Positions 16,942-22,302 of a stretch of DNA of 48,953 nt are shown in pieces. Made by a program: the position numbers and the translations under genes. The notes beneath the pieces were generated by a model that was not told where the DNA came from, made no database searches, and was given only the letters and a program-made list of their open reading frames with translations. Position 1 is the first letter of the stretch; every line of letters begins with the position of its first letter. This DNA is from an uncultured Clostridia bacterium (GTDB lineage: Bacteria > Bacillota > Clostridia > Oscillospirales > Acutalibacteraceae), in assembly GCA_946627725.1 (NCBI GenBank), contig CAMOVW010000002.1, forward strand, positions 1 through 48,953, in the 5' to 3' direction.

Positions 16942-16990
16942 ATCCACTGTGTTATTCCCTTACGGGTGCACAGTGGATTTATTGTTTTTT
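16942..16990. terminator. Terminator, usable on both strands
   Basis: 10-bp perfect stem ATCCACTGTG/CACAGTGGAT with a 17-nt loop, followed on the plus strand by TTATTGTTTTTT. On the minus strand a shorter T-rich run (TCTTTCTTTT) follows, so it can also end the TIR gene cluster. Confidence 0.85.
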
Positions 16991-17010
16991 ACGGAAAACA
17001 GATGTTTATG

Positions 17011-18261
17011 TTATCGGTACATATTCACGCTGTTTTGGGTTTTGTTTTTCGCTTTCTGCTTTGCTTCCCGTACCCGGTCGACGATCATGCGCGCCATCAG
17101 GGGGACTGCGGTTACAAGAAAGATAATATCCTCCACCAGCAGGTGTTCTTGCCATTCAGTGCGGGTGCTTATGTGACTCATGTGGTCGATCCTGTCGAAC
17201 AGGTCGAAGGTCATTCCAAACAGGAAAACGCCCCAAATGACCATGAATACGATCCCGATGACGGGGGATTTACGCAGTTCTTCTTTTTTGATAAAAGACA
17301 CGATAAACGGAATGATGGGAAGCGCGCTCACGACCCAGTCGAGATGGTAGGTTGGGTCGTTGTTCACGTTCAGCAGTACGCCCAAAAAAATCAGCGGGAC
17401 GCAGATGATCATAACCTTTTCATACAGGTAAAGGGCTTTCCATGGATTTTTTTTCTTCTTTTTCGGCGGCGTGATGAAAGGCGCTGCGGGTACGGCGGCG
17501 GGCCCCGGCGTATACATATTCGGCTGCGGCTGCGCCATGGGGGGCGCGGGCTGCGCGGGGGTTATTGCCGCGGCGGGGTTCGGTTCCGGCTGCCGAAGGG
17601 GCGGCTCCGCGCGCATCGGCTCTCTTTGGTGCTGCGCGGGGGCGGCTTGCGGCGGAGCGGGTTCCTGTTTTTTCTGCGCTGCGGCAGGCGGCGCATAAGG
17701 CGGCGCTGCAGGCGGCTGCTGCGGGATCTGCTGCTTTTTTTCAGGCGCGGACGCGTTTACGGGTTCCGCCTTTTTTGCGGACGGTTCCGGCGCTGCGGCG
17801 GTAGGGGAGGGCTTTTTTTCGGGCGGCGCGTCGCGGAACCGATCAAGGTTGTTTGCGGAATACAGCGTATGGTAAAACGGTTCTTCCGCATTGTATTTGT
17901 ATCTGAAAACGGATTGCAGCCGGTTCATCCGCATGGCCATGCCCACCGGAAGAGTCACGTCCTCCAGATATACGATCAGCCGGTCCTTTTCCAGATCCCG
18001 GGCAAAATTCAGTTCGTCCTTGCAGTTGCCGGAGGCGATATAGTTGTTCGATACAAATGCGATCATATAGCCGCAGTCCACAACCTTCTGGGCGATGTAC
18101 TGATCCCATTCGGTGCCGGGGTCGATGCCCAGATCAAACCAGATCCGGTAGCCGTCCCGCTGCATGCGCGCGATGATCTTTTGTACGGCTTCCCCGTCGC
18201 GGTGAGAGTAGCTTACAAAAATATACGGATCCGTTCCTTTGTACGGTACAGGGCTCTGCAT
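17011..18261 (-). CDS. TIR-domain protein with Pro-rich linker and four-helix membrane domain (copy 1)
   Basis: 416 residues. Residues 11-140 are a TIR domain: YIFVSYSHRDGEAV (strand A/box 1), DLGIDPGTEWDQYI, CGYMIAFVSNNYI and NCKDELNFA, in which Glu83 aligns with the catalytic NADase glutamate of plant and bacterial TIRs. Residues 145-270 are a Pro/Ala/Glu/Lys-rich linker. The C-terminus has about four membrane helices (283-299, 308-324, 333-351, 376-394) and a basic tail. Predicted: a membrane-tethered TIR facing the cytoplasm, able to cleave NAD+ if active. It is the second of two tandem copies, 64 bp after copy 2. Function (defence, signalling or sensing) is not known. Confidence 0.85.
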   Translation of the reverse strand: MQSPVPYKGTDPYIFVSYSHRDGEAVQKIIARMQRDGYRIWFDLGIDPGTEWDQYIAQKVVDCGYMIAFVSNNYIASGNCKDELNFARDLEKDRLIVYLEDVTLPVGMAMRMNRLQSVFRYKYNAEEPFYHTLYSANNLDRFRDAPPEKKPSPTAAAPEPSAKKAEPVNASAPEKKQQIPQQPPAAPPYAPPAAAQKKQEPAPPQAAPAQHQREPMRAEPPLRQPEPNPAAAITPAQPAPPMAQPQPNMYTPGPAAVPAAPFITPPKKKKKNPWKALYLYEKVMIICVPLIFLGVLLNVNNDPTYHLDWVVSALPIIPFIVSFIKKEELRKSPVIGIVFMVIWGVFLFGMTFDLFDRIDHMSHISTRTEWQEHLLVEDIIFLVTAVPLMARMIVDRVREAKQKAKNKTQNSVNMYR

Positions 18262-18279
18262 GCGATCATTTCCTTTCTG
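17661..18279. repeat. Direct duplication, unit 1 (TIR and linker coding DNA)
   Basis: Matches 19210-19828 at a constant offset of 1549 bp. By direct line-by-line comparison 17661-18237 is identical (577 bp), and only 4 mismatches occur in 18238-18279, clustered between 18238 and 18255. Identity includes all synonymous sites. Confidence 0.95.
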
Positions 18280-18325
18280 TCCGATTTTGATGAATGAAGC
18301 ATTGTTGGTTTTGCCGTAAGCTGAT

Positions 18326-19810
18326 TCATACCTGTTCGCACATGATCATGAAAATGGTTTCGTCGGCGTTATATACAAACACCAAACGGTATAACGAGTT
18401 CGTATAGCAGATATATTGCTTGCCATCCGACGCGGTTCCGGTTTCGTATCCGTCGCCGAGCTGCTTTGTTACGGCGGATATTTCCATGCCCGGGGCAAAG
18501 CCGCAGATGGTTTCGCCGCTTTCAAATGCGGCGATACCGCTGTAGCTTTCCGTTTGCTGGCCATCCGCATAATTCCGATTCAGAAACAGGCTGCCTCCGT
18601 TGCCGGTATTGTACTTGTTCCACGCAGAGTATTGTCTTGAGAAGCCCGCGATGTAAATGGATTTGGAAATATCAAATGATGCGTCGGTGATCCACAGCAG
18701 TTCGTTCGCTTGGGATATATGAAGCGGAAATGATATGTCTTTTTCGTTTACCGTAATCTTTGTGTAATCAGAGAATGATTGCTTTGCTGTTGAATTATTT
18801 ATAGAGGAATTCGGAGTTGCACTGCCGATTGCCGATACTATAATAATAACAAAGATAACTGCGGCAAGAATGGGGATGAGATAGATATTATGCCATTTTG
18901 AGCGATTTTTCTGCTTGCCGTTGGCTGCGGCGGTATTCGCCGGAGGCTGTTTCAGATTGTTTGCGGTATAGTTTGCGCCGAACGGTTTTGTTTGTATCTG
19001 CCGGGGTTGCTGCGCAGGTTTTTTTTCGGGCGCGGCGCCGGCGATGGGGGTTGCCGTATACATATTCTGCTGCGGCTGCGCCATGGGGGGCGCGGGCTTC
19101 GTGGGGGTTCTTGCCGCGGCGGGGTTCGGTTCCGGCTGCCGAAGGGGCGGCTCCGTGCGCATCGGCTCCCTCGGGTATTGCGCGGGGGCGGCATGCGGCG
19201 GCGGGGCGGGTTCCTGTTTTTTCTGCGCTGCGGCAGGCGGCGCATAAGGCGGCGCTGCAGGCGGCTGCTGCGGGATCTGCTGCTTTTTTTCAGGCGCGGA
19301 CGCGTTTACGGGTTCCGCCTTTTTTGCGGACGGTTCCGGCGCTGCGGCGGTAGGGGAGGGCTTTTTTTCGGGCGGCGCGTCGCGGAACCGATCAAGGTTG
19401 TTTGCGGAATACAGCGTATGGTAAAACGGTTCTTCCGCATTGTATTTGTATCTGAAAACGGATTGCAGCCGGTTCATCCGCATGGCCATGCCCACCGGAA
19501 GAGTCACGTCCTCCAGATATACGATCAGCCGGTCCTTTTCCAGATCCCGGGCAAAATTCAGTTCGTCCTTGCAGTTGCCGGAGGCGATATAGTTGTTCGA
19601 TACAAATGCGATCATATAGCCGCAGTCCACAACCTTCTGGGCGATGTACTGATCCCATTCGGTGCCGGGGTCGATGCCCAGATCAAACCAGATCCGGTAG
19701 CCGTCCCGCTGCATGCGCGCGATGATCTTTTGTACGGCTTCCCCGTCGCGGTGAGAGTAGCTTACAAAAATATACGGATCCGTTCCCTTATACGGTACCG
19801 GGTTCTGCAT
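18326..19810 (-). CDS. TIR-domain protein with single membrane helix and outer domain (copy 2)
   Basis: 494 residues. Residues 1-204 differ from copy 1 at only one position (Asn3 versus Ser3), so the TIR domain and catalytic-type Glu83 are the same. The Pro-rich linker continues but diverges, with one extra residue near 205 and a longer QPRQIQTKPFG segment. One membrane helix (309-328) is followed by a 165-residue outer domain with no recognised family; it contains Tyr/Gly-rich beta-like segments (ISFPLHISQANELLWITD, FAPGMEISAVTKQLGDGYETG). The FAPGMEISAVTKQLG part is faintly like SH3/beta-lactamase-inhibitor-type repeats, but this is weak. It lies 24 bp downstream of the SGNH lipoprotein gene and is probably co-transcribed with it. 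Confidence 0.85.
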   Translation of the reverse strand: MQNPVPYKGTDPYIFVSYSHRDGEAVQKIIARMQRDGYRIWFDLGIDPGTEWDQYIAQKVVDCGYMIAFVSNNYIASGNCKDELNFARDLEKDRLIVYLEDVTLPVGMAMRMNRLQSVFRYKYNAEEPFYHTLYSANNLDRFRDAPPEKKPSPTAAAPEPSAKKAEPVNASAPEKKQQIPQQPPAAPPYAPPAAAQKKQEPAPPPHAAPAQYPREPMRTEPPLRQPEPNPAAARTPTKPAPPMAQPQQNMYTATPIAGAAPEKKPAQQPRQIQTKPFGANYTANNLKQPPANTAAANGKQKNRSKWHNIYLIPILAAVIFVIIIVSAIGSATPNSSINNSTAKQSFSDYTKITVNEKDISFPLHISQANELLWITDASFDISKSIYIAGFSRQYSAWNKYNTGNGGSLFLNRNYADGQQTESYSGIAAFESGETICGFAPGMEISAVTKQLGDGYETGTASDGKQYICYTNSLYRLVFVYNADETIFMIMCEQV

Positions 19811-19834: not shown

Positions 19835-20689
19835 TTAAAATGTGATCCTGCGCAGACGTATGGCAAGATTGCGGAAGAATTCTACAATGCGCTCCAGTAT
19901 AGAAGAACCGTTTCCGGTTTCCACCCAGTTATCGGGCTGCACCTCTACCGTGATCTCTGCGGTTTCGGCAAGCCCCAGCGTGTACAGCTTCTCCTGTACG
20001 GTTTTTGCAATCAGCAGGTTCCCTTCGGCGTTGGGGTGGATGGTATCCACCGCGATCAGGCCGCTTTTGCCCGCGAAGGCCGCCGCCACGTCCACGATTT
20101 CGATCTCGCCGGGGTGGTTCTCGGCGTAATCGGTGAAAACGGCGTTCAGCCTTGCAATGCCCTCGGCGTATACGCTGCCGAGCAGGGGCGCGGATTCAAT
20201 GGGGTTATACAGCGTCTGCATCAGTATCACGGCGTCTTTGTTGTATCTGCGTATCGTGGCTACGGCGGTATCAAAATTCTGCCGCACGTTTTCCACTACG
20301 TCGTCGATCGCGCCGTAATTGCCGACCAGCCCCTGTGCCGCAAGGGCGGGCAGGTTGCCCTTCAGAAAATCGTTGCCGCCGATGGTTACGCTGATGATAT
20401 CGGCCTCTTTGATGTGGCCGATCACGTCCTTTTCCGCCATGCGGCGCAGCAGCTTTGCCGTGGTGTGGCCGTTTACCGCGTCGTTATAGTAGAGAAAACC
20501 GTTGGTGTTGGCGATGATGCGCCCGTAATTGGCCTCCTTCGGGTTCTGTATCCCGGCGCCCACGCCGATGGAATCCCCCAGCACCAGATAGGTTTTCGCT
20601 CTTTCCGCGGCGCAGGAGGTGATACTCAGCGCGCAGAGCAGCGTCAGTACGCTGAGCAGCACGCATACGGTTTTTTTGAATTTTCGCAT
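19835..20689 (-). CDS. SGNH/GDSL hydrolase lipoprotein
   Basis: 284 residues. Signal peptide with a lipobox-like SITSC (Cys26). SGNH blocks: GDSIGVG with nucleophile Ser40, NGHTTAKLL (block II region), GGND at 104-107, and DTIHPN near 216, giving the catalytic Asp-His. An outer-surface esterase or deacetylase is expected, possibly acting on wall or dietary polysaccharide esters; the substrate is unknown. The tail is unusual: an amphipathic basic segment FFRNLAIRLRR just before the stop. GGAGGAC RBS. It is the first gene of the minus-strand TIR cluster. Confidence 0.92.
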   Translation of the reverse strand: MRKFKKTVCVLLSVLTLLCALSITSCAAERAKTYLVLGDSIGVGAGIQNPKEANYGRIIANTNGFLYYNDAVNGHTTAKLLRRMAEKDVIGHIKEADIISVTIGGNDFLKGNLPALAAQGLVGNYGAIDDVVENVRQNFDTAVATIRRYNKDAVILMQTLYNPIESAPLLGSVYAEGIARLNAVFTDYAENHPGEIEIVDVAAAFAGKSGLIAVDTIHPNAEGNLLIAKTVQEKLYTLGLAETAEITVEVQPDNWVETGNGSSILERIVEFFRNLAIRLRRITF

Positions 20690-20787: not shown

Positions 20788-22302
20788 ATGCTTTGCAGAT
20801 ATTGCGGTAATCAGAACGATAACAAAAGTACGGTATGCGCTTTTTGCGGCAGAGCGCTTTATGACGCCGACGCCACGGCGGCGGGCGCATTTTCCTATCC
20901 CGCCGGAAACAATGCGCCGGGGTACGCGCAGGGTGCAGATCCGCAGTATGCGAATCCGCAGCCCGGTTACGGTCCGCCTGCAAACGGGCAGTACGTAAAC
21001 CCGTATCTGGCGCAGCCGCAGGACCCGCAATCGGATGCCACCGTGGTGATGCGCGGCCCGTACGGGCAGCAGCCTGGTTACGGTTCGCCTGCAAACGGGC
21101 AGTACGTAAATCCGTATCCGGCGCAGCGGCAGGGTCCGCAATCGGACGCCGCGGCAATGCGCGGCCCGTATGGGCAGCCTGCAAACGGGCAATACGTAAA
21201 TCCGTATCCGGCGCAGCCGCAGGATATGCAATCGGACGCCACCGTGGTGATGCGCGGCGCCTACGGGCAGCAGCCCGGTTACGGTCAGCCGGTAAATCCG
21301 CAGCCCGGGTTTGCGCAGCCCGGTTACCCGCAGGGCCAAACGGCCGACCCGAAGAAAAAGAAAAACGGTTCTTCAAAAATGATCGTGGGCATTGCTGCAG
21401 GCGTTGCTGCAGCGCTTGTGATCCTCTCTCTGCTGGGTATTTTTGTGATTTATCCCAGGCTGGTTGAAAACAATTACGAGCTTGAAGACGTACAGCTGTA
21501 TGTAGGCGAGAGCTACGATTTCGGCGTAAGTAAGGCTTCTCTCATCACTTCGGACGGCGGCGTGGCGTCGATTGAGGGCTCTTCGGTCAACGCGCTGTCG
21601 CCGGGCGTTGTTACGATAACGTCAAAATATCTGTTTTCTTCGGACAGCTGCACCGTTACCGTGTCGGAAGAAACCGTATCCCTGACAAAACCGGCGGATA
21701 CGACCCTTGCCGCGGGCGGCGTGATCACAATAGAGGCAACCATCGACGGCCCCTCCGACGTTTCGGATCTGACCTGGGAAGTGGACAATGAAAAGGTGGC
21801 TTCGGTGGATGCGACCGGTAAACTGAGTGCCCATTCGCCGGGCAGCGTTACCGTTACCGCATCCCTGCCGGGCGGCGGCAGCGATACCTGCCGCTTTACC
21901 GTTACCGCGCCGGAGGTCAACCAGAAAAACGGTTTTGTGAAAACGCCTTCGGGCAGTAAGATCGCTCCGGTCACCGTTCACGCATCGTCGGACAGATCCG
22001 CTTTTGTGTATTTCAAATCGCTCAGCGATGCTTCAAAGGATTTCTCACTGTTTATCGGCAAGGGAACCACGGTCAACGTGGATGTGCCGGTCGGCAAATA
22101 TGAGATGTATTACGCCAGCGGCGCGGTATGGTACGGTACCGAATTCAAATTCGGTGCGGATACGGTTTACAAAACCACCGACGAGGTGTTCAATTTCTAT
22201 ACCTCCGGCAATTACGCTTACGGTACCGAGCTCACGCTCTATACGGTTTCCGGCGGAAATCTCAGCACAAAAGAGATCGACGGTTCCGATTTCCCGGATT
22301 AA
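20788..22302 (+). CDS. Zinc-ribbon membrane protein with Tyr/Gly/Pro repeats and bacterial Ig-like (BIG2) domain
   Basis: 504 residues. Residues 3-20 are a zinc ribbon (CRYC...CAFC). Residues 50-185 are a low-complexity linker with three repeats containing NGQYVNPY (starts near 66, 103 and 133) followed by QSDATVVMRG. One membrane helix at 197-222. The outer part begins with BIG2-like strands (YELEDVQLYVGESYDF, KVASVDATGKLSAHSPGSVTVTAS) up to about residue 375. It ends with a beta-rich domain of unknown family (GTTVNVDVPVGKYEMYYASG...WYGTEF). The function is unknown. The layout (cytoplasmic module, Pro-rich linker, helix, outer domain) parallels the neighbouring TIR proteins. A strong terminator follows. 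Confidence 0.85.
   Translation: MLCRYCGNQNDNKSTVCAFCGRALYDADATAAGAFSYPAGNNAPGYAQGADPQYANPQPGYGPPANGQYVNPYLAQPQDPQSDATVVMRGPYGQQPGYGSPANGQYVNPYPAQRQGPQSDAAAMRGPYGQPANGQYVNPYPAQPQDMQSDATVVMRGAYGQQPGYGQPVNPQPGFAQPGYPQGQTADPKKKKNGSSKMIVGIAAGVAAALVILSLLGIFVIYPRLVENNYELEDVQLYVGESYDFGVSKASLITSDGGVASIEGSSVNALSPGVVTITSKYLFSSDSCTVTVSEETVSLTKPADTTLAAGGVITIEATIDGPSDVSDLTWEVDNEKVASVDATGKLSAHSPGSVTVTASLPGGGSDTCRFTVTAPEVNQKNGFVKTPSGSKIAPVTVHASSDRSAFVYFKSLSDASKDFSLFIGKGTTVNVDVPVGKYEMYYASGAVWYGTEFKFGADTVYKTTDEVFNFYTSGNYAYGTELTLYTVSGGNLSTKEIDGSDFPD

Follow-up and report, generated by a model that had tools for sequence, protein, structure and literature searches.

Varied architectures are already known for bacterial TIR groups (PMC7075850), and the TIR_2 domains of gut bacteria include active NADases (PMC9092222). 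For SpbK, clustering has been shown to drive both bacterial TIR NADase activity and phage defence (PMC12847820). How a TIR head came to sit on a new body has usually been inferred from distant comparisons. Here, we describe a locus at which a recent event of this kind appears to have been caught at the DNA level, and relatives in which older ones may be traced.

The window is the whole stretch of DNA that was analyzed, 48,953 nucleotides from an uncultured Clostridia bacterium of the Acutalibacteraceae (contig CAMOVW010000002.1). Exactly where a preliminary description of this DNA had placed them, it contains two adjacent, same-strand open reading frames for TIR proteins, with TIR2 preceding TIR1 in the order of transcription. 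The features of the locus are as follows.

17011–18261, minus strand: TIR1, 416 aa, with an N-terminal TIR_2 head, a Pro/Ala/Gln-rich linker, about four membrane helices, and a basic C-terminus (open reading frame; PF13676, 1e-19; hydrophobic segments; AlphaFold2)
18326–19810, minus strand: TIR2, 494 aa, with head and linker as in TIR1, one membrane helix, and a C-terminal outer domain of ~160 aa (open reading frame; PF13676, 1.3e-19; one hydrophobic segment)
17657–18237, minus strand: TIR1 copy of a 581-bp core, identical to the TIR2 copy (longest common substring, permutation)
19206–19786, minus strand: TIR2 copy of the core, identical to the TIR1 copy (longest common substring, permutation)
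17509–17656, minus strand: TIR1 linker to codon 251, diverged from but homologous to its TIR2 counterpart at 19055–19205 (12 base differences and a one-codon indel)
17014–17463, minus strand: TIR1 membrane tail, an orphan with no convincing homolog in 150 family genomes; GC about 0.48
18329–18886, minus strand: orphan tail of TIR2, made up of the membrane helix and outer domain, with no convincing homolog in 394 order genomes; GC about 0.46
18262–18325, minus strand: intergenic stretch of 64 nt from the TIR2 stop to the TIR1 start, whose last bases carry the same ribosome-binding site as TIR2
19835–20689, minus strand: GDSL/SGNH hydrolase gene, 24 nt upstream of TIR2 and probably co-transcribed
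16942–16991, no strand assigned: inverted repeat ATCCACTGTG/CACAGTGGAT with a T-run after it, read directly from the sequence; a likely terminator separating TIR1 from the convergent CBS gene

A scan for promoter and terminator patterns gave matches no commoner than in shuffles.

The TIR head and the two membrane bodies

Both proteins score well above the PF13676 (TIR_2) gathering score of 28, at 71.7 and 71.3 bits, and the domain is present in all 35 proteins that we aligned. Eight residues (F15, S17, Y18, W41, D43, G45, W52, and E83) are invariant among these relatives, with Glu83 occupying the position of the catalytic glutamate of TIR NADases. Modeled by AlphaFold2 from 35 sequences, residues 1–140 adopt a TIR fold with pLDDT mostly >90, while the TIR1 tail appears as long helices of low confidence. 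The head model matches TIR structures including SARM1, AbTir, and SPARTA, and the closest solved sequence is Cat1, a CRISPR-associated TIR. Since Glu83 is invariant and the predicted head folds as a TIR domain, an NADase head is plausible.

The preliminary description had named a four-helix body and a single-helix body with an outer domain. The hydrophobic segments agree, with four and a basic end in TIR1 and one followed by about 160 residues in TIR2. Both tails have a GC content of 0.46–0.48, compared with 0.572 for the window. Weak matches to the TIR1 tail all fell on helices of UppP (NCBIfam E 0.0035); UppP being a near-universal protein, we took them as chance hydrophobic similarity. The TIR2 tail matched best within an HtrA-type protease, a match that we did not find convincing. 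A single-sequence model of the TIR2 outer domain was uninformative (pLDDT 41). Elsewhere in the window, positions 20788–22302 encode a protein with the build plan of the TIR genes and another head: a zinc-ribbon-like start, a repeat-rich Pro/Gln linker, a hydrophobic segment, and a Big_2 domain. Its linker repeats are in tandem, and the closest genus genome (G024) has no such gene between GH3 and GDSL.

The identical core and its edges

An identical stretch of 577 bp had been reported for the two genes; the identity holds, while the length measured here is 581 bp, with the two copies spaced 1549 nt start-to-start. Across 753 aligned coding bases, the genes differ at 16, and the longest identical run is the 581-bp core. 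In 20,000 shuffles, the longest identical run was 365 bp, and none reached 581 bp.

At the 5′ edge, TIR1 and TIR2 share the ribosome-binding site and start (GCAGAAAGGAAATGATCGCATGCAGA) and then differ in codons 3, 4, 7, and 8, with three of the four differences synonymous. At the 3′ edge, codons 202–251 (50 linker codons) carry 12 base differences and a one-codon indel, a divergence of about 8%. Past ...NMYT, no similarity between the tails proper is detectable. Thus, the earlier view that the outer halves are unrelated stands for the tails; the linker beyond the core, described there as diverged, is homologous. Synonymous changes affect 6 of the 58 flank codons and none of the 193 core codons (Fisher p = 1.2e-4). 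Four-fold sites alone give a weaker contrast, with 2 of 32 in the flanks against 0 of 92 in the core (p = 0.065). The pattern fits gene conversion: a tract identical even at synonymous sites, between diverged homologous edges. Protein-level selection does not explain silent identity in the core beside silent changes at the gene start.

Ordinary short reads do not span the core, and the genome is a draft of 404 contigs, so the full identity of the two copies is partly the assembler's inference, and a few true differences could have been smoothed out. The tandem itself is credible because unique sequence joins the TIR2 tail to the TIR1 start.

Swapping of related heads onto unrelated bodies

The bacterium's own genome has seven TIR matches. 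Among 26 genus genomes, no other member has a head closer than about 44%; better matches (60–63%) occur in other families of gut Clostridia. In a tree, the pair falls within a supported clade (98/98) that also takes in heads from Oscillospiraceae, Lachnospiraceae, and Erysipelotrichaceae and leaves out the TIRs of the same genus. Strong head matches were found in 12 of 295 order genomes, and in 1 of 21 and 1 of 22 genomes of the best-match families. Sequence comparison thus depicts a patchy TIR family that has probably spread horizontally, with horizontal gain as the simplest reading of the pair's origin. Phage, plasmid, and viral collections held no close relative of the pair. One phage record, an unannotated contig from human faeces (MT836178.1, 8062–8427), encodes a TIR head 35% identical to that of TIR2.

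Conserved pairing in relatives, on which the preliminary description had counted, did not emerge: none of the 26 genus genomes has this pair, and other genes occupy the site in the closest one. This genome, G024, reads CBS, GDSL, GDSL, GH3 there, with no TIR genes. In place of the window's TIR pair and single GDSL gene, this locus (L071, G024:C96) carries two GDSL hydrolase copies, with 78% and 70% DNA identity to the window gene. The interval is no clean empty site, as a second GDSL gene stands there. The same arrangement rules out the GDSL hydrolase as an obligate TIR partner, G024 having GDSL and a second copy without TIRs. What does recur elsewhere is the tandem TIR-membrane array with non-identical heads.

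Swapped C-termini, the other expectation for relatives, were found. In many pairs, heads 60–70% identical precede tails without detectable similarity, and the Pfam domains on the 35 relatives include MORN, Sel1, TM2, TPR, Pkinase, FtsZ, RCC1, and FHA. Between a TIR-membrane-outer domain protein of the same genome (L003) and a TIR-TM2-repeats protein of a sister genome (L010), the heads are 83% identical, and 368 bp of head are the sole DNA match between 9.2 and 10.3 kb of compared sequence. This shows that swapping of related heads onto unrelated bodies is a wider habit of this gut Bacillota TIR subfamily. The loci are L079 (G000:C125) and L078 (G024:C312), in sister genomes; apart from this 368-bp head, neither they nor their proteins are related.

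Tandem TIR-membrane arrays were found at four further loci (L025, L031, L032, and L035). Paralogous heads in other arrays are 60–74% alike, with one pair at 89%, so head identity is not needed for function. As the heads of these four arrays stay distinct, general concerted evolution of heads in all arrays is ruled out. In tail trees of L031, L032, and L035, L031_4043 and L035a are strongly joined (90% DNA identity) and other groupings are rejected. The heads of this set are about equally distant (82–88%), and no grouping is rejected. Four-fold site differences number 14/49 (head) and 29/53 (tail) for L031_389 and L035a, and 18/51 (head) and 25/127 (tail) for L031_4043 and L035a, such that head and tail distances run in opposite directions in the two comparisons. 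The set supports an older head exchange, for which the tail tree is the only decisive element, in genomes that are drafts here too. Three observations on individual genes accompany these surveys. Two TIR-membrane-outer units share one 1187-aa frame at L035:2193–5753 and are separate genes in L031 and L032, reflecting either a real fusion or a sequencing indel; a TIR head at L040:3811–4241 spans two frames and may belong to a frameshifted or degraded gene; and L005 (G000:C296), in the bacterium's own genome, has its TIR on the C-terminal side, and the region in front of it, at the N-terminus, resembles CRISPR-associated sensor proteins when judged by eye.

The pair is best read as older tandem paralogs that recently underwent gene conversion or an equivalent replacement of the head. 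The synonymous-site contrast and the recurrent head/tail exchange in relatives lend good support to the preliminary proposal of a conversion or recent domain swap. An older duplication would have spanned everything from the ribosome-binding site through the TIR head to the linker, with a different membrane body attached to each copy. Judging from the pattern of differences, one copy would subsequently have had 581 bp or more overwritten from the other, in either direction, by conversion or by homologous recombination replacing the head, leaving one identical head on two bodies. No ortholog of the pair, and hence no pre-homogenization outgroup, occurs among the 26 genus genomes.

One might instead suppose a very recent duplication of head and linker onto which the linker and tail of a related gene were then joined, the core being identical simply because it is young. 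Unrelated tails of lower GC and the frequency of tail exchange in this family would fit, and the end product resembles conversion of an existing neighbor's head. Yet the core has diverged edges on both sides, including three synonymous changes in codons 4–8 directly after an identical ribosome-binding site. The supposition therefore requires two exchange points, in practice a conversion tract, and we regard it as rather unlikely. Less likely still is an effect of assembly, in which two diverged or strain-variant heads collapsed to one consensus that was printed twice. Assemblers commonly smooth small bubbles, and both the 404 contigs and a repeat beyond ordinary read length give room for it. 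Against this, the assembly kept the two linkers, 8% divergent, and the two differing gene starts apart, the joint between the copies is unique, and collapse could mask a few differences but hardly a divergence of 8–17%. Conversion between older paralogs is accordingly the reading that we carry forward, and what is new is a recent head-homogenization event seen at the DNA level, fitting a recurrent habit of head swapping.

Proposed working and comparison with known systems

We propose, with SpbK and the gut TIR_2 NADases as leads by analogy, that the cytoplasmic TIR head is an NADase kept inactive at the membrane. Each body would sense its own stimulus or cluster; stacked heads would then cleave NAD+ or produce an ADP-ribose signal. 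With a common head, the two receptors could feed one output and might co-assemble. The proposal infers enzyme activity, topology, co-assembly, stimulus, and purpose alike; as to purpose, an alarm for phage attack or envelope damage stands at about even chances. Taken whole, from tandem paralogs and a later overwritten tract to membrane NADase receptors with an alarm role, the account seems to us on balance probable.

A defence role, as the preliminary description had suggested, is plausible, although the window holds no known defence partner. The surrounding genes are metabolic (Rnf, glucuronate isomerase, CTP synthase, glutamine synthetase), and neighbors of TIR genes in relatives are mostly housekeeping genes with a few scattered PADLOC matches. 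Neither the window nor the relatives' loci look like defence islands, and genomic location lends the idea no support. Two candidate matches were discarded on inspection, a ZorB-like one being a lipoprotein-like MotB/OmpA-type protein and an LmuB/DndD-like one an SbcC-type ATPase. Near another TIR gene, the open reading frame at L027:7436–8626 may be the ADP-ribosylglycohydrolase seen among the scanned neighbor proteins; if so, it is a possible handler of the TIR product.

It is highly improbable that the pair belongs to a named system, whether Thoeris, a CBASS or Pycsar TIR effector, or a type III CRISPR TIR. Such membership would account for Cat1 as best solved match and for the weak matches to ThsB, ThcB4, and SAVED-TIR models. 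The PADLOC and NCBIfam defence models match the heads only weakly, far under the NCBIfam cut-offs: ThcB4 reaches 20.7 bits against 220, and PADLOC ThsB matches some 80 residues with E 3.9e-6. We recognized no ThsA, CD-NTase, cyclase, or CRISPR gene in the window, no ThsA or other signal-activated effector appeared among 30 scanned window ORFs, and TIR1 and TIR2 lack SAVED, CARF, and cNMP sensor domains. A more serious contender, albeit a doubtful one, is that the heads are non-enzymatic scaffolds recruiting partners for ordinary envelope or cell-cycle regulation. Housekeeping neighborhoods, regulatory bodies on related heads (FHA, kinase, FtsZ, TM2), and the many gut TIR-domain strains listed without an in vitro NADase product (PMC9092222) favor scaffolding, whereas the glutamate invariant in 35 relatives and a patchy spread unlike that of core regulation point back to the membrane NADase that we propose.

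The head looks like a swappable alarm module. A further extension, which we hold unlikely as it stands, is a modular receptor family: recombination at the DNA level would repeatedly copy one TIR head onto exchangeable sensor bodies, and tandem copies would stay identical so that different receptors join a single mixed TIR signaling complex. In that case, the 581-bp direct repeat would also allow the pair to collapse or re-expand, changing which body is made. With this natural pair, one can ask if receptors that differ in their sensors but not in their heads form a common complex with a common output. The pair also suggests that gut Clostridia harbor many membrane TIR receptors that await study.

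Among known systems, Toll-like receptors provide an analogy only: they too are membrane receptors with a cytoplasmic TIR and an outer domain, but the TIR of the pair is N-terminal, the opposite order, and no LRR ectodomain was found. Thoeris ThsB and ThcB4 share a weak TIR-domain model match, far under the NCBIfam cut-off, and the pair has no ThsA-type partner. Cat1 (CRISPR-associated TIR 1, PDB 9mud) has a TIR head whose conserved C-x-D-E-L glutamate segment aligns with ours; it is tied to CRISPR, whereas this pair has membrane bodies and no recognized CRISPR genes. The gut commensal TIR_2 NADases (PMC9092222), likened here by Pfam family, come from gut Clostridia such as Coprococcus and Roseburia, and several have measured ADPR or cADPR-type products; they are not shown to be tandem, membrane-anchored, or head-identical. 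SpbK of Bacillus subtilis (PMC12847820) is activated by a phage portal protein, unlike the pair, in which the body is a membrane anchor, in TIR2 with an outer domain and in TIR1 without. SpbK is nonetheless a Bacillota TIR protein whose TIR clustering leads to NADase activity and defence, the mechanism that we propose for the pair.
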